NCBI GenBank assembly: GCA_001508855.1
Contig: LGFL01000007.1
Location: 1 to 42,084 of the forward strand
DNA: 42,084 bases
Reading direction: 5' to 3'
From: Thermoanaerobacterales bacterium 50_218
Lineage (GTDB): Bacteria; Bacillota; DSM-12270; Thermacetogeniales; Thermacetogeniaceae
Shown piece after piece: positions 7,553 through 33,446 of this stretch. Both the position numbers and the translations under genes were made by a program. Each line of letters opens with the position of its first letter. Within the stretch, counting starts at the first letter, position 1. The notes beneath the pieces were generated by a model. It was given only the letters and a program-made list of their open reading frames with translations. It did no database searches and was not told where the DNA came from.

Positions 7553-8952
7553 TCCTGGTCACCTTCTTTTTCCAGAATTCCACCGACAATCAGCTCAGGA
7601 ATGCGGATCGTCGGCTGGGCATCAGATACGGGAACACCCTGCCCGTCTTTGCCACACGTTCCAATTGCAAAGCCAAGGTCATTGCCGACCATGTCGATCC
7701 GGCGCAGCACCTCAGGCCCGTTGCCGGTAATCGTCGCTCCCCTTACCGGTGCCTTCACTTCTCCATCCTCGATCAGGTAGCCTTCAGTAACTTCGAAAAC
7801 GAAGTCACCATTGACAGTGTTCACCTGACCACCTCCCATTTTTTCGACGAACAGCCCCTTCTTGGTCTCCTTGATGATCTCCTCGGGAGAAGCATCACCA
7901 GGAGCAAGAAAGGTGTTCGACATTCTGGGAATCGGCTGGTGCTGATAAGATTCCCGGCGCCCATTCCCGGTGGGCCTCACTCCATCCTTGCGGGCAGTCA
8001 GGTGATCGTAGAGGTAGCCCTGCAGAACTCCGTTTTCGATGAGCACAGTCCGTTGCGCTGGATTCCCTTCATCATCGCACCGGAAGGAACCATACTTCCC
8101 TGGTAAGGTGGCGTCATCAATCACAGTGACCAACTCTGAAGCCACTTTCTCTCCCTTTTTCCCGGCATAAACGGAAAGCTTCCTCTGCACGAGGTCAGCC
8201 TCCAGACCGTGGCCACAGGCCTCGTGGATCATCGTTCCACCAGCCTCACCGGAAAGAACAACAGGCATCCTCCCCGCCGGGGCATGCCTTGCCTTGAGCA
8301 TCAAAATAGCGCGGTTGGCAGCCTTGCGCCCCAACTCCCAAGGGGTTTCCTCTTCATAAAGCTCAAGGCCTTGTGTCCCTCCTGCTGCCTCGAATCCCGT
8401 CTGGATCACGCCACCATCTGCTGCCACGACATTGACGGCAAGCCTGGTGCGGATGCGCTCATCCTCCACAAATGTCCCTTCAGTGTTGGCAATCACCACC
8501 TTCTGAACCACATCACCATAGCCGACAGTGACCTGCCGGACAAGTTTGGCATCTACAGATCGTGCTGCTTCATCAGCAACCTGAACGAGAGCCACCTTAT
8601 CGCTAATGGGGACCTCGTCGGGACGCTTCTCTACAGGGAAGGGAACAGGCAATTTTTGGGAATTAATAACCACACTGGCATCAGGGTTTTCACAAACTGC
8701 CCCACTCACCCTTTTTGCAAGTTTTAGCAGGTTTTCCTTGCTCAGGTCATTAGTGTAACCGTAAGCAGTATTTTCCCCCTTCAAAACCCTGATTCCGGCT
8801 CCCTCTTCGCGCCCGGCAATCACCCGCTCGATCTTCTTGTCCTCACACCCAATTCTGGTAACCCTCTTTTCCTCAAGAAAGATTTCCGCAAAATCTCCAC
8901 CCTTTTGGGCGACCTGCAGAATCTCCTCAAGATCGGCTTTCGAAAACATCAT
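7549..8952 (-). CDS. tldD: TldD-family metalloprotease subunit
   Basis: This is a protein of about 467 residues with the zinc-binding HEACGHGLEAD (HExxxH) motif near residue 245 and the conserved C-terminal glycine-rich block AIGTCGKDGQGVPVSDAQP. It is the catalytic partner of TldE. The frame is open to an ATG at 8964, but GGGGGAAAGA lies between that ATG and two tandem in-frame ATGs at 8952/8949. The shorter protein is therefore more likely. It is the first gene of a two-gene operon transcribed away from the plus-strand gene at 9268. Confidence 0.92.
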   Translation of the reverse strand: MMFSKADLEEILQVAQKGGDFAEIFLEEKRVTRIGCEDKKIERVIAGREEGAGIRVLKGENTAYGYTNDLSKENLLKLAKRVSGAVCENPDASVVINSQKLPVPFPVEKRPDEVPISDKVALVQVADEAARSVDAKLVRQVTVGYGDVVQKVVIANTEGTFVEDERIRTRLAVNVVAADGGVIQTGFEAAGGTQGLELYEEETPWELGRKAANRAILMLKARHAPAGRMPVVLSGEAGGTMIHEACGHGLEADLVQRKLSVYAGKKGEKVASELVTVIDDATLPGKYGSFRCDDEGNPAQRTVLIENGVLQGYLYDHLTARKDGVRPTGNGRRESYQHQPIPRMSNTFLAPGDASPEEIIKETKKGLFVEKMGGGQVNTVNGDFVFEVTEGYLIEDGEVKAPVRGATITGNGPEVLRRIDMVGNDLGFAIGTCGKDGQGVPVSDAQPTIRIPELIVGGILEKEGDQD

Positions 8953-9267
8953 TCTTTCCCCCATTTATAAGCATTTTGTCCTGCCATCTTCACCATCAAC
9001 CATCATCATACCTTTATTCTTTTCTATTGTCTACCACCACTACCATCACTATACCCGCAGAAAGCGAATTCAAAATTTTGGCGCGCCTCCCCCTGGCAAA
9101 GTCATTACAGCACCCAAAATTCACTCCGGGAAGCAGGATTTGTTTTTTAAAAAAAGAATCTTTGGAGATGAAACCAAGTCTTGGGTAAGATAAGAGTAGA
9201 AACAATCAACTCTTGGAAGTGGAATTGGGATCTTCACTTTTTTCAGTGGTGAAAAGAGGAAGGAAGT
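8953..9267. other. Divergent intergenic region between tldD and the plus-strand hydrolase
   Basis: About 315 bp without a supported gene. For tldD (minus) a TATAGT -10-like box is seen (9048-9053), with only poor -35 candidates (TTTTGA at 9070-9075, 16-bp spacing). On the plus strand an AGGAAGGA ribosome-binding site precedes the ATG at 9268, but no convincing promoter boxes were found. No terminator, repeat or small conserved ORF stands out. Confidence 0.4.
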
Positions 9268-9951
9268 ATGGTGAGGCTTTCCGAGCACCTTTACTATCAA
9301 AAAGGGGAAAATAAAGAAATCGTTGTTGCAGCGCCCCACCATGGCTGTGTGCCTGGCTGCGACTACTTTACCAAAGAAATCGCCACAATGATCGCCGACC
9401 ACCTGAGAGCAACCTTAGTTTTCGCCGAAAGGTTAAAACCACTGGTAGACCTCAACAAAGACCCCTCTCGCGCCTCCACTCCGCACTTTCGTCAGCTTTG
9501 TTTAACATACCAACAGATTGCCCTCGCGGAAGAAGTAGAGCTTTTCCTGGAAATCCACGGCCACGTCCGCGGTCACTACGACCTGGAAATCTCCTGCGGA
9601 TTCGAGTTCGACCCCCACCATCCCCTGGATAAAGAATTCGCAGAGAATTTTTCAGCATTTCGAAACAACCTCAGAAGAGAAATCGCCAATAGGTGGGAGG
9701 AGGGGTTGCCCCTTCCTCCACCATCTATTGGAGTATTTCCTTTCGATCAAGATGTAGTGATGAAGGCCAGAAAGACCTACCTCTTCCAGAAAATCAGGAA
9801 GCTCCAACTGCAGGGAAGGAAAATTTTCGGGATCCACATCGAGGTATTCCGCGACTACAAGACAGGAGACCCCACATCTCCGGTTTTTACTTGCCAGGAG
9901 GTAATGGTAAAAGCCCTGGCAGATAGCATCGTCCGATCCTTTTGGCGGTAA
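9268..9951 (+). CDS. N-formylglutamate amidohydrolase-like protein
   Basis: This 227-residue plus-strand protein has patterns like the N-formylglutamate amidohydrolase/zinc hydrolase group: APHHGC near residue 22, VDLNKDPSRAS near residue 70 (compare VDxNRxP in the family) and LEIHGHVRGHYDLEIS near residue 94, with several His/Asp/Glu placed to bind a metal. Start ATG follows AGAGGAAGGA. It ends 15 bp from the convergent prepilin gene. It is a single gene with opposite orientation to its surroundings. The exact substrate is unknown; a carboxypeptidase-like or amidase activity is the best guess. Confidence 0.55.
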   Translation: MVRLSEHLYYQKGENKEIVVAAPHHGCVPGCDYFTKEIATMIADHLRATLVFAERLKPLVDLNKDPSRASTPHFRQLCLTYQQIALAEEVELFLEIHGHVRGHYDLEISCGFEFDPHHPLDKEFAENFSAFRNNLRREIANRWEEGLPLPPPSIGVFPFDQDVVMKARKTYLFQKIRKLQLQGRKIFGIHIEVFRDYKTGDPTSPVFTCQEVMVKALADSIVRSFWR

Positions 9952-11525: not shown

Positions 11526-12575
11526 TCAGGCAAGAAGAAATACAGGATGTCTCTCAACCGCTTCCAGAAACTTTTCGACGAGAACGGGATCAAGGTGACT
11601 GCCGCTGTAGCTTTTCAACTCCTCCAAAGCCTCCTGCAAGCTCTGAACATTCCCATCTCTGTAGAGATGGTCAAAAAGATCAGCAACAGCTATGATCCGA
11701 GCTATCAGAGGGATGTCTTCCCCCCGCAAGCCCGCGGGATAACCGTTCCCGTCAAACCTCTCGTGGTGGTAAAGAACCCCCAACCATACCTTGTAGACGA
11801 GTTCCTTCGGTTCCATCTGATATACCAGTTGAGCACCTGCAGTCGGGTGCTTTTGCTGGTCATCTTCCATGAGCTTGCCAAGGTCATGGAGCAAGGAGGC
11901 ATAAGCAAGGGCGCGTCGATCATCTTCACTAAGTCCTAGTTGATCGGCGATTAAGAGCGAATAGGAGCAAACCCTTTCCCCATGGCCTTTATCTGCCTGG
12001 CTGTGCGTCTCGGCAAGATGTGCTATTGTTTTGAGGAGGCTTACGAGGAACCTTTCTTGATAATCACAAAGTTGACAATTGTAGATAATTGTCGCAACCA
12101 GTTCTACCAGTTGCTGGCACGTTCGCAAATCCTCTTTGTTAAAAACTTCATTACCTCGCTTGTTGACCAGTTGAAGAACACCGATTGCCGTTTCTCCAGC
12201 AACAATAGGCAGAACGATCATCGAGCGAGTGATGAAACCGTTCGAAGAGTCAAACCACTGAGTCCAGCGGCTCTCCCTGGTAACATCTTCGACCAGAACC
12301 GGCTCCTTGGTCTCCACAACCTGTCCAGGAATCCCTTCACCCCTTTGCAAACAAAGTCCTTTGAGGTCATCAGCGCGGGGACCTCGAACCACAAGAGGCA
12401 GCAAAACGTCTTTCTGGCCATCGAGAAGCCAGAAGGTCGTTGCTTCCGCATTGACCATCTTCATCGCTTCATCAACAACGATTTCCGCGACCTTCTGGAA
12501 ATCACGAACCGAATTCAATTTCCTGCAAAGAGATAGCAGCCTTTGTGGTTCCAAAAAAACCCCATTTTCCACCAT
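11526..12575 (-). CDS. GAF domain + HD-GYP domain protein (probable c-di-GMP phosphodiesterase)
   Basis: This 349-residue protein has an N-terminal GAF sensor (about residues 25-165) and a C-terminal HD-GYP domain (about 180-345). Key residues are present: LLHDLGK with His230-Asp231, KHP at 242-244, YHHERFDGNGYPAGL with GYP at 278-280, and VADLFDHL. HD-GYP proteins break down cyclic di-GMP. No response-regulator or membrane part is seen, so the GAF domain is the probable sensor. The frame extends to 12683, but GGAGGAGGA sits just before ATG 12575, which is chosen. It lies between pilO and pilD in the pil cluster, suggesting control of pilus activity. Confidence 0.88.
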   Translation of the reverse strand: MVENGVFLEPQRLLSLCRKLNSVRDFQKVAEIVVDEAMKMVNAEATTFWLLDGQKDVLLPLVVRGPRADDLKGLCLQRGEGIPGQVVETKEPVLVEDVTRESRWTQWFDSSNGFITRSMIVLPIVAGETAIGVLQLVNKRGNEVFNKEDLRTCQQLVELVATIIYNCQLCDYQERFLVSLLKTIAHLAETHSQADKGHGERVCSYSLLIADQLGLSEDDRRALAYASLLHDLGKLMEDDQQKHPTAGAQLVYQMEPKELVYKVWLGVLYHHERFDGNGYPAGLRGEDIPLIARIIAVADLFDHLYRDGNVQSLQEALEELKSYSGSHLDPVLVEKFLEAVERHPVFLLA

Positions 12576-15089: not shown

Positions 15090-16430
15090 TTATTCCCTCC
15101 AGCTGGTTATCCTAATGAAACAAGTGGTCCAGTTAAGGTTTTGGACATATTGGCCGACCATAATATCATCATAAGTAAACTCAACCTCACACCCTTGTGA
15201 TTGTATATTTGCAACAACCATCCCGCCAGTAATAAACACCTTGTTTGCTACATCCGCGCTACCTCTTGAATAAAGCAAGGCTTCTATCTCTAAGTTCGCC
15301 TTCTTAGTGACAAAACCGCCGGTGGAAAGTATTGCCAAGCAGTGGTCTTGATCATTGTCTTGCCGCCTCAGGTCTTCATCGAACATTACGTTCCCATCAA
15401 CCACAAAAATAGCGCTCCCTGAATATTCACCTGAAAACGTGGCATCACCGTCAACATAATAAATACCGCTGAGATCGCTTAAATTGCTACTGTTGAAAGT
15501 AACAGGGCCTTGATAAACGTAATCCGCGTTTTGTGCATACCAGCGCACCTTTTCGTCACTCAAAAGATCCGGATATTGAGGTATGAGAGACAAGCAATCG
15601 AGGTCTGACTGTACTTCCCACTTATTGGGATTATTATTTCGCCACTCTTCATCTAATTGATTAATGTCCTTTACGTAAATCTTTCCGTTGATCTTCACGT
15701 TCTCACCTATCTCAACCCGACCTGACTGGACATAAAGGTTATTGAGTGTTGCTCCAGTACCAAGCAACACAGAAGATTCCTCTCCAACATTATACCCCGC
15801 ACAGTACACATCACCTTCTATGAAGACAACCTCGTTCCCCTGCATATCCTCAAGAGTTACCTTCGTTAGAGCATAAACATTCCCATACACATACGATCCT
15901 GCTGAAAGCTCCATTTCGCCATCACTTGCAATTGTCTCGCTTACAATTTTGGCACCGTGGGCCAATTTCAAGCCAGCAAGAAACATCGTCCACATACCTT
16001 GAAAAATGTCCTGTGAGTAGACATACTCGATCTCAGCTACGACTGTTAATGTTTTCGCAATTCCCGCAAATTCTCCTGTCGATTCTATCTCCAGTGTAAC
16101 AACATTGTTTTCCTCGTTTATCTTTGTGACATATATCTTTTCAAAGGTACCACCTGCATAAGAACTTTCGCCTCCTAAATCATCGTGAAGGAAGTCACGC
16201 GAAACATCCAACCCCAGGTCTTCTACCCAGCCAGGATTACTTTTCGCCTTCGCCAGAACCTTTTCAACTCCTGCTTCAGCGATGTAATACGCCTTTGTGA
16301 GATAAACCTCACGGGTGGAATTTCTCTTGACGGCAGTGCTGATGGCAAGTGCAGTCTCGCCCACCACGAAGATCAAAGCAGTAAACAGGAGAACAATGAT
16401 TAAAGCTTGCCCTTTCTGATTTGCACACAC
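15090..16430 (-). CDS. PilX-like pilus protein with large beta-rich C-terminal region
   Basis: This 446-residue protein begins NQKGQALIIVLLFTALIFVVG, a PilX-type N-terminus (hydrophobic helix, Glu after GQ missing; a 'GE' occurs later), then AYYIAEAGVEKVLAKAK, as in PilX N-terminal domain proteins. The rest (about 130-440) is rich in short beta-like repeats (YVYGNVYALTKV, VFIEGDVYCAGY, YVDGDATFSGEY), recalling polymer-forming beta-helix proteins. A 20-residue C-terminal segment ends in RITSWRE. It may sit at the pilus tip or shape it, possibly as an adhesin. The GTG start is preceded by GGGAGG. No orthologue function can be assigned. Confidence 0.75.
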   Translation of the reverse strand: MCANQKGQALIIVLLFTALIFVVGETALAISTAVKRNSTREVYLTKAYYIAEAGVEKVLAKAKSNPGWVEDLGLDVSRDFLHDDLGGESSYAGGTFEKIYVTKINEENNVVTLEIESTGEFAGIAKTLTVVAEIEYVYSQDIFQGMWTMFLAGLKLAHGAKIVSETIASDGEMELSAGSYVYGNVYALTKVTLEDMQGNEVVFIEGDVYCAGYNVGEESSVLLGTGATLNNLYVQSGRVEIGENVKINGKIYVKDINQLDEEWRNNNPNKWEVQSDLDCLSLIPQYPDLLSDEKVRWYAQNADYVYQGPVTFNSSNLSDLSGIYYVDGDATFSGEYSGSAIFVVDGNVMFDEDLRRQDNDQDHCLAILSTGGFVTKKANLEIEALLYSRGSADVANKVFITGGMVVANIQSQGCEVEFTYDDIMVGQYVQNLNWTTCFIRITSWRE

Positions 16431-29805: not shown

Positions 29806-30078
29806 CTACCTTTCGTGGGACAACTCATTAAACAATTTTTTGATTGCTTTCTTTTCGATTCTCGACACATAGCTCCGGGAAATTCCCAGCACCTTGGCAA
29901 TCTCCCGTTGCGTGCGCTGCAGCCCGCTGAAGAGCCCGTATCTCATTTCGAGAACCTTGCGCTCTCTTTTACTCAATTTCTTGAACTTTTCCAGGAGATT
30001 CTGTTCTTCAAACCGGTTCTCAACCACATCAGAAACCTCTTGTGCATCTGTTCCCAGAACATCCATTAAGATCACTTC
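29806..30078 (-). CDS. sigK: sigK 3' half (SpoIIIC-type; sigma region 4), split by skin-like element
   Basis: The frame is open from the crossover core at 30077-30078 to 29806 and encodes 89-90 residues of sigma region 4. RKVLEMRYGL and the helix-turn-helix TQREIAKVLGISRSYVSRIEKKA match the C-terminal part of sigma-K. It lacks regions 2 and 3 and any ribosome-binding site of its own (a GTG at 30075 is in frame, but no clear start exists). It should only be translated after excision of the element joins it to the 5' half at 32353. The joined reading frame is DGNE|VILMDVLG and needs no insertion or deletion. Confidence 0.92.
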   Translation of the reverse strand, partial: EVILMDVLGTDAQEVSDVVENRFEEQNLLEKFKKLSKRERKVLEMRYGLFSGLQRTQREIAKVLGISRSYVSRIEKKAIKKLFNELSHER

Positions 30079-30088
30079 GTTAAACTCC
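30077..30088 (-). repeat. Skin attachment site at the sigK 3' half
   Basis: On the minus strand the site reads GGAGTTTAAC followed by GA. GA (30077-30078) is the proposed crossover dinucleotide, and the arm GGAGTTTAAC (30079-30088) belongs to the element. It is the partner of the arm at 32344-32353, to which it is complementary in 8 of 10 positions when both face the core. Confidence 0.75.
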
Positions 30089-30144
30089 TTACGTTATCGA
30101 CATTTTCCCTCCTCCAAACGTGAAAATTATGAAATCATCTGTTT

Positions 30145-30327
30145 TCATCCCTGTGAATTGTAGCAGTTTACGATAGCCCTGTACAACATTTTCATCCGTT
30201 TCCGGCGTTCTTCTTCGGAGATTTCCGGACGATAAACCCGAATCGAAGTGTCGCCAATCTTCATTTCAGCGACCAACCTTTGGCCATCTTTCTGGCCATC
30301 TTGTTCTCCTGGGCTTGGCTTCACCAT
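30145..30327 (-). CDS. Small skin-borne protein (candidate recombination directionality factor)
   Basis: This is a 60-residue charged protein (MVKPSPGEQDGQKDGQ then MKIGDTSIRVYRPEISEEERRKRM). The start at ATG 30327 has AGGTGG upstream; the frame is open to 30354 (69 residues). No known domain is recognised. It is encoded inside the excised element, in the opposite direction to the recombinase. Its size and charge fit small recombination directionality factors of serine recombinases, but this is only inference. Confidence 0.6.
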   Translation of the reverse strand: MVKPSPGEQDGQKDGQRLVAEMKIGDTSIRVYRPEISEEERRKRMKMLYRAIVNCYNSQG

Positions 30328-30425
30328 CGAACCACCTGTTAATGATCTATTCACTCAGGCATCAAGGACAACCTTCAGAGCATATTTTTACATGTAGATA
30401 AAGACGATATCGGAGCGGATCTACC

Positions 30426-31955
30426 TTGGCAGAGATACCATTTGACCTCCAGAAGGTGGCAATCTACTTGAGAAAATCGCGGGCCGAGCTCGAAGCCGAA
30501 GCCCGCGGTGAAGGAGAAACTCTAGCCAAACACAAAAAAGCCCTTCTTGAACTAGCTGCCAGGAATAGACTAAATGTTGTCGCAATACGAGAGGAAATAG
30601 CCAGTGGTGAACGCATAGATGACCGCCCGGAAATGCAGCGCCTTTTGAGGGAAGTAGAAGCAGGGGAATATGACGCTGTCCTGTGTATGGACCTTGACAG
30701 ACTCGGGCGTGGGGACATGATCGATCAAGGGAGGATCCTGGCAGCCTTTAAGAGTTCCTCCACCCTGATCATCACTCCCAGGAAGGTCTACAACCTCGAT
30801 GATGAGCTTGACGAAGAGTGGAGTGAAATTGAGGCCTTTTTCGCCCGTCGAGAGTTGAAGATCATCAACAAGAGGCTCCAGCGGGGGCGGGTCATGGCCG
30901 CTAAAGAGGGGAAATTCATCGGCGCTCACACACCATTTGGCTACGACAAGGGCCCAGACAACATTTTAGTGCCGAACAAAGACGCTGAGATTGTCCGCCT
31001 TATTTTCAACTGGTATGTTTACGGAGAAAACGGTGAGCAAATGGGAAGCACCAAGATCGCTCACCGCTTGAACCAAATAGGAATCAAGAGTCCGATTCGG
31101 AGTATCGCCTGGGATGCTTCTTCAGTTCTCTCTATTCTCAAAAACGAGGTCTACATAGGACGGATCCAGTGGAAAAAGTCATTCCGCGACAAGAGCAAAA
31201 GAGTTGGGCGTCTGAGACCACGTGAAGAGTGGATTGACATACAAGGCAAGCACGAACCAATAGTGGATGAAGCCCTGTTCTGGACTGCCCAGGAACTTAT
31301 GAAAAAAAGAAGGAAGGTGCCGACAAAAAAGGGTCCCAAAAATCCCCTTGCTGGGCTTATTGTTTGCGGCAAGTGTGGCAGAAAGATGGTGTTGCAGCAG
31401 GGAAAAGTGAACATGATCAAGTGTGTCAATCCCTACTGTAGCAACAAATCATCTTCATTCCACTTTGTCGAAGAGCGACTGCTCAGCGCAATCAGAGAAG
31501 AACTCTCGAAATTAGAAATCAAAATAGAAATACTTGAGCAAGAAGCCGCTGCTGCAGCCGCAGGACCGCCGGTTCCTTCCACTCTTCTTCCGGAACTGGA
31601 AAACCAGCTTGCTGAACTCAAAAAACAAAAGTCCCGCATCCAGGACCTTCTCGAACAGGGAATTTATGACATTCCTACCTATCTTGAGCGCGACAAAATA
31701 ATTTCCGAAAGAATCAAGACAGTCGAGCAGGCGATAGCCCAGACAAAGCAGAAAATCGCCGAATACAAAGAGAAGCAAAAAGCCTCCAAAAAACTCTTCC
31801 CCACCATTCGGCACGTTCTTGATGCATATCATGCAACTGATGATGTGGTCAAGAAAAACATGCTACTAAAATCAATAATCAAGAATGCGGTCTACACCAA
31901 AGAAAAGACCGCCAGGCTCGATAACTTCTTCTTAGATGTCTACCTTTTACTTTGA
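30426..31955 (+). CDS. spoIVCA: Large serine recombinase of the skin element (SpoIVCA-like)
   Basis: This 509-residue large serine recombinase has the catalytic domain at about residues 10-155 with Ser18 in YLRKSRA, Arg in DDRPEMQRLL (about 67) and MDLDRLGRG (about 90-96), a recombinase domain (about 165-300), a zinc ribbon (C314, C317, C333, C338) and a coiled coil (about 360-455), then a C-terminal tail. All expected parts are present, so it looks intact. TTG start with GGAG 10 bases upstream. GCATATT at 30380-30386 fits a sigma-E -35 box, though no -10 was clear. The protein would excise the element and then be lost from the mother-cell chromosome. Confidence 0.92.
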   Translation: MAEIPFDLQKVAIYLRKSRAELEAEARGEGETLAKHKKALLELAARNRLNVVAIREEIASGERIDDRPEMQRLLREVEAGEYDAVLCMDLDRLGRGDMIDQGRILAAFKSSSTLIITPRKVYNLDDELDEEWSEIEAFFARRELKIINKRLQRGRVMAAKEGKFIGAHTPFGYDKGPDNILVPNKDAEIVRLIFNWYVYGENGEQMGSTKIAHRLNQIGIKSPIRSIAWDASSVLSILKNEVYIGRIQWKKSFRDKSKRVGRLRPREEWIDIQGKHEPIVDEALFWTAQELMKKRRKVPTKKGPKNPLAGLIVCGKCGRKMVLQQGKVNMIKCVNPYCSNKSSSFHFVEERLLSAIREELSKLEIKIEILEQEAAAAAAGPPVPSTLLPELENQLAELKKQKSRIQDLLEQGIYDIPTYLERDKIISERIKTVEQAIAQTKQKIAEYKEKQKASKKLFPTIRHVLDAYHATDDVVKKNMLLKSIIKNAVYTKEKTARLDNFFLDVYLLL

Positions 31956-31967
31956 TGGTTTCTTGCT

Positions 31968-32192
31968 TCAGCACTCGCAACGCCGACGTATCTCTGAGTA
32001 GAGCTTTTGCGGTTGTATCCCTGCAATGGCGAACCATGCCCGTTCAGGTCCACCCTCGGCGGCGCGGCGAAAAAAATCTTGGGCGTCTTTTTGCAAAGCA
32101 GAACTGAAAGGCTTCAAGGCATCGAGAGCAGCACGCACCAACACAGCCAGAGCAAGCCTCCGGTAAACAGACTGGGTGTCTGGGGTCTCCAC
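31968..32192 (-). CDS. Small skin-borne protein, phage-type accessory protein
   Basis: This 74-residue protein starts at a GTG with a perfect AGGAGGTG seven bases upstream, strong support for translation. Its ending, AWFAIAGIQPQKLYSEIRRR, resembles small phage proteins with the pattern 'DAxxFFR ... W ... AGIxPxxxxxxI' that are common in Firmicutes prophages. That suggests the element descends from a phage. The function is unknown; it could be a directionality factor or a regulator. It is tail-to-tail with the recombinase gene (12 bp apart). Confidence 0.65.
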   Translation of the reverse strand: METPDTQSVYRRLALAVLVRAALDALKPFSSALQKDAQDFFRRAAEGGPERAWFAIAGIQPQKLYSEIRRRCEC

Positions 32193-32280
32193 GCCCGAAC
32201 ACCTCCTGGGTGCTTTTGCAAATCAACTATCATTTTGACTTTCTTCTAAAATATATTAAACCCCCATAGACCTCTTCCCT

Positions 32281-32775
32281 TCAAGTCCTTTCGGAGAATA
32301 TCCGGTCACCAGGAAATTGTGAGATATGGTGTAGATAGCCCGCGGAGGTAAACTCGTTACCATCCTTATCCACCCCAATAGGTTCGTAGAGAGAAACCTC
32401 AACCCTCGACTTTTTCGAAGCACGCAAACTCATCAGAATTTCGTTTTCAATACAACGGGCAGCATATGTGGCTAGTTTCGTCCCTTTGTTCTGATTATAA
32501 GTATTAATTGCCTTAATCAGGCCAATCGTCCCGATGGAAATCAAATCTTCCTGCTCTTCTGGTGTGAGGTCGAACTTCTTGATGATATGAGCAACAAGAC
32601 GCAAATTGTGCTCAATGAGGATGTTTCGCGCTTCTTCATCCCCCTCCTCGAGGCGCTGGAGATAATAAGCTTCCTCATCTTCAGAAAGAGGTTGAGGAAA
32701 GGCGTTGTTGCAGATAAATCCAAAAACAAAGAAAAGAGTGGATAATAGAGAGAAGTAATCTGGAAATCCAAACAT
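32281..32775 (-). CDS. sigK: sigK 5' half (SpoIVCB-type; pro-sequence, sigma regions 2-3), split by skin-like element
   Basis: This predicted 164-residue ORF encodes the N-terminal part of pro-sigma-K. A hydrophobic pro-sequence of about 22 residues precedes [17 protein letters not shown], the same place as in Bacillus subtilis pro-sigma-K; there the site is cut by SpoIVFB. Region 2 motifs include [34 protein letters not shown] and [18 protein letters not shown]. After GNE (32353) the remaining codons are encoded by the element and are unrelated to sigma-K. I chose ATG 32775, after GTAGGGGT, because it matches the family pro-sequence length; the frame runs to 32850. Confidence 0.93.
32344..32359 (-). 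repeat. Skin attachment site at the sigK 5' half
   Basis: On the minus strand the sequence reads TAACGA (plus 32354-32359), then GTTTACCTCC (plus 32344-32353). GA (32354-32355) is the proposed crossover dinucleotide. The element arm is complementary to the arm at 30079-30088 in 8 of 10 positions, giving a 10-2-10 site in the excised circle. Confidence 0.75.
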
Positions 32776-33019: not shown

Positions 33020-33446
33020 CAAAAAAAGTGCATGTCTTTCGCTGGATCGCCTTCTGCGTCCGCCCTTCCTCTAAAGATCTTCAGCTATCTTCCGTCAATG
33101 GCAGAAAAAGCTTCTGCTCAGCAAGGGCGTGTTTTTAAGGAAGCCAAGTAACACCTGGGTTTCCTGAGGAAAGTAGGAAGGAAGGAAACACAGCAGACAC
33201 GCAAGCAGAATCGTGTAGTGACTTCACCTTGGATTCAAGTAGTTCGCTACGCAAAAAATTCCCTATGGGACTCAGAGCAATCCGCCGTGTCCGCTCTTGA
33301 ACTGCATCAGGAGCCAATTGGCAGCCTTTGTAGATCTGAAGGTAAGCAAGGCGACCCCATAAAATCAGAAAACCACAGAAAAAACAGCAAAAAAGGAAAG
33401 AAAGCCGCCGCTTCTGTAAGCGATTCAAAAAGAAACCCCCCATCAA
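33020..33446 (-). pseudogene. Remnant of a class B penicillin-binding protein (SpoVD/PbpB-like N-terminus)
   Basis: A 103-residue frame (33135-33446) has an N-terminal anchor of a class B PBP (KRRLSFLFCCFFCGFL), then RLAYLQIYKGCQLAPDA and QERTRRIALSPIGNFLRS, where the family has a RGxIxDRxG segment. That segment is missing its Arg and Asp. After a stop at 33135, similarity appears to continue in pieces (ALAEQKLFLPLTEDS, stop, RSLEEGRTQKAI) down to about 33020. No transpeptidase domain follows. It lies between mltG and sigK. Because the match is by eye, the extent is approximate and the family (SpoVD or FtsI) is not certain. Confidence 0.6.

Follow-up and report, generated by a model that had tools for sequence, protein, structure and literature searches.

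According to published reports, the skin element that interrupts sigK of Bacillus subtilis is 48 kb long (PMC10745906), and its recombination directionality factor (RDF), the protein Skr of 64 amino acids (aa), is encoded by a gene overlapping spoIVCA (PMC6957869). The skinCd element of Clostridioides difficile contains 19 genes, including those for the large serine recombinase (LSR) CD1231 and the 72-aa RDF CD1234, the RDF gene being under sigma-E and SpoIIID (PMC5025042). Island IV, found in sigK of Bacillus cereus biovar anthracis, is 22 kb long, has no phage genes and is excised in sporulation (PMC10745906), and in B. cereus ATCC10987 gerE is interrupted by gin, an element of 31 genes and three recombinases that encodes the recombinase GirC and the directionality factor GirX (PMC5595907). 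Other intervening elements measure 57 kb by coordinates (Clostridium tetani) and 105 kb (Alicyclobacillus). Here we describe a 2277-bp insert that splits sigK in a 42,084-bp contig (LGFL01000007.1, hereafter the window) of Thermoanaerobacterales bacterium 50_218. The published sigK and gerE intervening elements listed here are far larger, the SP-beta-like spsM elements of B. amyloliquefaciens being left out of this comparison. We consider it very likely that the insert is a skin-type sporulation-gene-intervening element reduced to a site-specific recombination unit. Its excision would be controlled by sigma-E and SpoIIID in the mother cell, and it most likely descends from a prophage integrated at the same position of the gene.

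The window sequence, read directly, contains sigK in two pieces, both on the minus strand (Table 1). The frame of the N-terminal part has a longer opening at TTG 32850 and runs beyond the break to a stop at 32281. Two copies of a 6-bp repeat, TAACGA, lie 2277 bp apart, and joining the pieces there removes 2277 bp, restores the sequence DKDGNEVILMDVLG and gives the reading DKDGNE/VILMDVLG (the slash marks the join), in frame and with zero residues lost. The NCBIfam SigK profile NF004471 matches the N-terminal part over positions 10-145 and the C-terminal part over 145-231, and the corresponding ranges for TIGR02846 (SigK) are 9-143 and 143-226. Since the profile ranges of the two parts meet, the halves abut exactly, with nothing missing or duplicated at the break. 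The joined SigK has 230 aa counted from the ATG, and the hydrophobic stretch that opens it is presumably the pro-sequence, by comparison with B. subtilis. The first-pass annotation of the window had claimed a 2277-bp split, an in-frame TAACGA join without an indel and a product of about 230 residues, all of which are borne out. It had also named missing homology at the join in relatives with an intact gene as an argument against such a split; the four relatives with uninterrupted sigK (G001, G007, G013, G015; G numbers denote genomes, and L numbers retrieved loci or contigs, some of them from IMG/VR) align through the join. In the 94% complete assembly (1.77 Mb, 121 contigs, the window being contig C102), no TIGR02846 match reaches the SigK cut-off of 298.65 bits, and the two best matches, at 260.8 and 257.3 bits, are SigE proteins over the SigE cut-offs. 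A sporulation gene is thus split by the insert and probably needs stitching during spore formation.

The recombinase of the insert is complete, as the annotation had judged from its appearance: the frame is open, Resolvase, Recombinase and zinc-ribbon domains are all present, and transcription is directed toward the N-terminal part of sigK. It matches PHROG integrase family 95 (359 bits). Its best NCBIfam match is XisF (NF041201), the excision recombinase of the cyanobacterial fdxN element, which excises DNA in a terminal cell type of a different host and from a different gene; an fdxN-type XisF identity was rejected, the score of 103.9 bits being well below the NF041201 cut-off of 375. Upstream of the recombinase gene, and divergent from it, lies an open reading frame (ORF) of 69 aa, a candidate RDF by its position and weak homology. 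The AlphaFold model of this protein is a beta-hairpin plus a helix (pLDDT 73, pTM 0.37); a fold search with the model returned 35 matches, none under E 0.001, and the ORF has no match in annotated phages. As a single-sequence query it found no match in IMG/VR, but tblastn on one IMG/VR contig, L138, did detect a homologue. Of the two small genes proposed in the annotation, this one stands, with homologues near related recombinases. The other, of 74 aa, was rejected as a gene: it has no family over cut-off and no IMG/VR relative, and its best match elsewhere has E 0.99. Prophage genes (capsid, tail, packaging) are absent, since the ORFs within the 2277 bp leave no room for them. The G+C content is 0.48 in element and flanks alike.

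A sporulation-type promoter match opens 67 bases upstream of the recombinase start. It consists of GCATCAA-15-CATATTTT, which resembles a sigma-E promoter, and an overlapping box, AAGGACAACC, which fits the SpoIIID consensus WWRRACARNY. The two loose patterns, promoter and box, occur four and 15 times on both strands of the 42-kb window, this site included, and a same-strand SpoIIID box between -40 and +20 of the start of a sigma-E-like match is found once in the window, here. Among retrieved loci, a strict SpoIIID box is located upstream of 17 of 37 sigK-linked recombinases versus five of 34 unlinked ones (p 0.005); four linked loci and one unlinked locus lacking a recognisable recombinase frame were dropped from this count, and its rows are not independent, many linked recombinases being of one family. 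Recombinases at L058, L083, L084 and L100 are preceded by a perfect TAGGACAATC box and have no sigK within ~1.5 kb; other sporulation genes may be split at these loci.

The element shares with the B. subtilis skin the interruption of sigK and a serine recombinase transcribed toward the N-terminal part (PMC6957869, PMC10745906). Both also have a small ORF beside the recombinase, which is the RDF in B. subtilis, and the sigma-E/SpoIIID control known there has a putative counterpart here in the promoter match, by sequence. The differences are in size and content, 2.28 kb versus 48 kb with prophage genes, and in the placement of the small gene, which is divergent in the window, unlike skr overlapping spoIVCA; the relatives split at another site (site B, below) do show the overlapping layout. 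Like the window element, skinCd combines an LSR with a small protein (the 72-aa RDF there, the 69-aa candidate here), but its orientation is opposite to that in B. subtilis, with the recombinase beside the 3' part, and its sigma-K has no pro-sequence (PMC5025042). Island IV is likewise a skin-type element without phage genes, but it is 22 kb long, carries a restriction system and is inserted at nt 195 (PMC10745906). The gin element is also a non-phage intervening element, in a different gene and with 31 genes. The window element most likely works like the B. subtilis skin, and its structure agrees with that class.

In the mechanism we propose, the recombinase gene at 30426 would be turned on by sigma-E and SpoIIID in the sporulating mother cell. 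The recombinase and the 69-aa protein, or another RDF, would then recombine the two TAACGA attachment (att) sites and eject a 2277-bp circle, leaving an intact sigK that encodes pro-sigma-K. The forespore would retain the split gene, and the element would therefore be inherited. We infer excision, its timing and the RDF role from these features, and excision is probably functional. Alternatively, excision might be unnecessary if the halves were made as two cooperating polypeptides, since an AAGGAG is found in the C-terminal part, a few bases ahead of a GTG (sequence only). This AAGGAG lies, however, within the att arm and is part of the inverted repeat of that arm, and the conserved recombinase would be left unexplained, which makes separate polypeptides extremely improbable.

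Table 1. Features of the split sigK locus and of a related split gene; coordinates refer to the window unless a locus is named
Feature	Position	Strand	Remarks
Whole intervening element	30083..32359	.	2277 bp, one core copy counted
sigK N-terminal part	32354..32775	-	ATG start 32775
sigK C-terminal part (region 4)	29806..30082	-	
Core TAACGA, N side (attL)	32354..32359	-	
Core TAACGA, C side (attR)	30077..30082	-	
Element-side arm, N end	32330..32353	.	GTTTnCCTC and TATCTACAC common to the related element in L138
Element-side arm, C end	30083..30106	.	would pair with the opposite arm as an imperfect inverted repeat in the circle
Sigma-E-like promoter GCATCAA-15-CATATTTT overlapping SpoIIID box AAGGACAACC	30359..30388 (box 30364-30373)	+	
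Large serine recombinase	30426..31955	+	509 aa, TTG start, motifs YLRKS and DLDRLGR
69-aa ORF, candidate RDF	30145..30354	-	likelier start ATG 30327
74-aa ORF, unsupported as gene	31968..32192	-	
PBP2-like gene stub	33135-33446		103 aa, looks truncated; 62-residue match, 45%; 549-566 aa near sigK in relatives
sigK pieces of G243	L333:2278-2445; L334:5720-6073		

Could the insert instead be decaying, with sigK dead, sporulation being lost and the recombinase a relic? The genome is small (1.77 Mb), excision was not seen, and the PBP2-like gene that lies beside sigK in relatives is reduced to a stub in the window. Against this, the recombinase is open and complete and both sigK parts are in frame; the genome encodes SpoIIID (136 bits, over cut-off) and two SigE proteins, and the window itself encodes spoIIIAA, spoIIIAB and spoIIIAD; the sporulation-type promoter match is retained. 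Moreover, the recombinase differs from that of L138 with pN 0.20 against pS 0.88, although pS is saturated in this comparison. Decay is therefore an improbable explanation. The two sigE genes of this assembly are divergent, 78% identical and both over the SigE cut-offs (L136:2138-3277; L137, contig C31 of genome G000, positions 8111-9284). Each adjoins a sigG-like frame (82%), and they represent either a duplication or a foreign contig.

Comparison with relatives points to the source of the element. Three break points are found in sigK: A at about residue 55, B at about residue 102 and C at about residue 130 of the G015 fragment. The window gene is split at site C. The AATGA core of the B. subtilis skin we take to be at the site-B position, and nt 195 of island IV presumably corresponds to site A and not to C. 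Homologues of the window recombinase are present at E 1e-50 in 20 of 398 genomes of the phylum, its own included, but the order (a sample of 20 genomes, all of one family) has no close one, only the window's own genome (1/20) being matched at E 1e-60. Twenty recombinase loci were retrieved besides that of the window. Two of them, from G025 (48% identity) and G392 (51%), adjoin a sigK part ending at site C; the remaining 18, with recombinases 29-44% identical, have no sigK within ~1.5 kb. The site-C element of G025 is a tailed prophage of ~43 kb. The eight of its proteins compared with PHROGs match a terminase, a portal, major head, sheath and tail tape measure proteins, the wedge and hub of the baseplate and a RecE-like exonuclease. 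Its arms would form 16 inverted-repeat pairs in the excised form, a value reached by 0.3% of shuffles. The closest relative, L138, shows 67-69% identity in the recombinase, encodes a homologue of the 69-aa protein (54.7%, tblastn E 2e-17) and has, next to the core and outside the restored gene, an arm that matches the window arm. In the IMG/VR contigs L190, L193, L194 and L198 (recombinases 42-45% identical), the sigK N-terminal part also ends at site C. In G392, G025 and G021, too, a homologue of the 69-aa gene lies upstream of the recombinase gene and on the other strand (E 0.005-0.05, single-sequence search in a small set). Based on the shared site, the related recombinases and the small-gene homologues, we read the window element as the remnant of a prophage of which the integrase, the small gene and the ends are left: an ancestor with a site-C integrase would have lost everything else by deletion.

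The 18 loci away from sigK, together with a cargo of only a recombinase and small ORFs, would also suit a free mobile unit, an IS-like serine transposon sitting in sigK by chance. Such a unit is nevertheless very improbable, as the genome assembly has a single PF07508 match, the relatives at 48-69% identity that can be placed sit at the same sigK site, and the site-B elements of the order follow the sigK tree. The skin-type reading, already proposed in the annotation, draws on the exact in-frame join, the complete recombinase, the promoter match, the SpoIIID gene and the 43-kb prophage with a related recombinase at the same site.

Several observations weigh against the skin-type reading. No excision product was seen for the window genome, the contig running through both junctions. 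The inverted repeat of the predicted attP is marginal: it has 14 pairs, against a mean of 11.3 after shuffling, and 4.7% of 300 shuffled versions do as well. A SpoIIID box on the recombinase strand is missing from the larger relatives G025, G392 and L138, and promoter control is therefore not universal; the strict box, enriched near sigK, is not exclusive to it either, given the five unlinked recombinases that have one. Except for L138, the RDF role of the 69-aa gene comes from position and single-sequence matches of E 0.005-0.05 in a small set. Finally, the genomes searched include no close cellular relative of the window element, and against L138 pS is saturated.

Split sigK genes are the rule in the order. 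Comparison of intact and split genes and of element sizes, which the annotation had recommended, reveals sigK split in 15 of 20 genomes and uninterrupted in four; sigK was not found in the remaining one of the 20 (G008). Site A is interrupted in G002 and G009, and site B in G003 (Thermacetogenium phaeum), G004, G005 and G011 (Thermacetogenium sp. UBA5472 and UBA4966, respectively), G006, G010, G012, G016, G017, G018 (Syntrophaceticus schinkii Sp3) and G019. In G014, the N-terminal part ends at A and the C-terminal part starts at B. Size could be measured for the 12 of 15 in which both sigK parts share one contig: 1778, 1780, 1781, 1784, 1794, 1796 (S. schinkii Sp3), 2106, 2277 (window), 2286, 3723 (T. 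phaeum) and 4384 bp, and ~28.2 kb in G010. Tiny skins are thus common, 11 of the 12 being 1.78-4.4 kb, and the idea that the window element might be the smallest known has to be abandoned, since relatives have elements of 1778-1796 bp and it ranks eighth smallest. Small single elements are also found outside the order, in G162 (1802 bp, with a core of only 3 bases), G335 (2681 bp), Desulfocucumis palustris (3186 bp) and Peptococcaceae bacterium BRH_c4b (3313 bp).

The smallest elements hold a recombinase of ~500-520 aa and a small upstream ORF. The 1.78-kb relatives, and probably the window element, contain little besides such a unit, which has been described (PMC6957869) as one part of larger elements. 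This ORF is present for all 14 aligned site-B recombinases (from 13 genomes, with G014 represented twice and G040 coming from another family), the weakest match being that of G040 (E 6e-4). In 12 of 14 cases the ORF and the recombinase start overlap, by 28-91 bases, and in both G014 copies they abut. The TAGGACAATC box is identical upstream in 11/11 single-site-B elements of the order; in G014 the box is TAGGACAAAC, and G040 lacks one. At site A, a SpoIIID-like box, TAAGACAAGC, is located in front of the G002 and G009 recombinases and is missing from the L138 one. The layout of skinCd resembles that of the site-A elements of G002 and G009. Small site-B elements from other families (L134 from G162, L118 and L119) have the recombinase in the opposite orientation, that is, in the same direction as sigK. 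The otherwise small elements of G003 and G012 (L027, L039) contain similar cargo genes of 154 and 125 aa with the motif GERSILxYFPTS. The closed genome G034, the length of which is presumably that of Syntrophomonas wolfei, has an extra sigK N-terminal part (L053, C1:589174-589503) besides an uninterrupted sigK at 613868.

Site-B units appear to be maintained. Among four congeners (G006, G012, G017, G019), recombinase dN/dS is 0.13-0.18 at dS 0.25-0.34, and the sigK halves have similar dS (0.12-0.35); the small ORF is less constrained, two pairs giving dN/dS of 0.36 and 0.48. Distances between recombinases go together with those between sigK proteins (Mantel r 0.86, or 0.83 if G040 is left out; 0/5000 permutations either way), and the recombinase and joined-sigK protein trees of 12 genomes are compatible, with poor support at several sigK forks. 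Judging from purifying selection and correlated distances, site-B units and their hosts have probably been passed down together over a long period, despite the lack of a unit in G015, whose congeners G004 and G010 have one.

Some relatives seem to carry more than one element per sigK. L138 contains only sigK residues 54-132 (9540-9776), in frame and stop-free, flanked by one recombinase of site A and one of site C, and the same recombinase pair is found in L152 (10145-10387). L211, from a 61-kb contig, has residues 54-106 and 103-135 (11591-11689, 15697-15855) on either side of a 4019-bp element. Its sites A, B and C are occupied by three different kinds of recombinase, which suggests a sigK in at least four pieces. 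L200 (11551-11682; B and C) and L301 (9815-9988; A and B) look doubly split, on short evidence. The phenomenon extends to a cellular assembly: in contig C40 of G243, sigK residues 51-106 and 100-217 lie ~23 kb apart behind a site-A recombinase (Table 1). The missing N- or C-terminal parts are off the contig in every multi-piece case, so that the full gene is not seen. For G014, whose middle piece is absent from the assembly, the break points suggest a sigK in three pieces. Contig C80 of this genome (L043), which carries the site-A recombinase, breaks off right at the att core CATCAA, the expected beginning of the middle piece. Likewise, in G392 the ends of contigs C14 (L335) and C24 (L336) coincide with the att core, and C18 (L131) repeats the last 99 bases of C14 and then enters the element. 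A mixture of joined and split sigK molecules would break the assembly at such a point in G392; the branch would be expected one base further on, and these contig ends are therefore taken as a lead only.

On balance, we lean slightly toward the view that sigK in this order is a multi-piece gene assembled by DNA splicing. Prophages would have entered it repeatedly at three points and been pared down to vertically inherited, self-excising units of recombinase plus RDF, fixed in the developmental programme. Some relatives would have two or three such units with recombinases of different families, and would make sigma-K only after two or three excisions, an AND gate in DNA. No report of kilobase-scale skins or of a three-piece sigK was found in the open-access PMC literature, preprints lying outside the scope of that search. 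One paper reports S. schinkii simply as having SigK (PMC4642661), and the words sporulation and sigK were not found in the T. phaeum genome paper.

It is a long-standing question whether skin elements are tolerated parasites or switches used by the host. A lineage whose insert has been reduced to an excision module, and whose site-B units were shown to be under purifying selection and to descend together with sigK, speaks for the switch itself being retained; the named relatives, T. phaeum and S. schinkii, make this idea testable. In their make-up (attL-int-small ORF-attR), the 1.78-kb units resemble naturally occurring minimal cassettes for excision. If confirmed, sigK genes in three or four pieces would mean that several programmed DNA excisions are needed for one bacterial protein.

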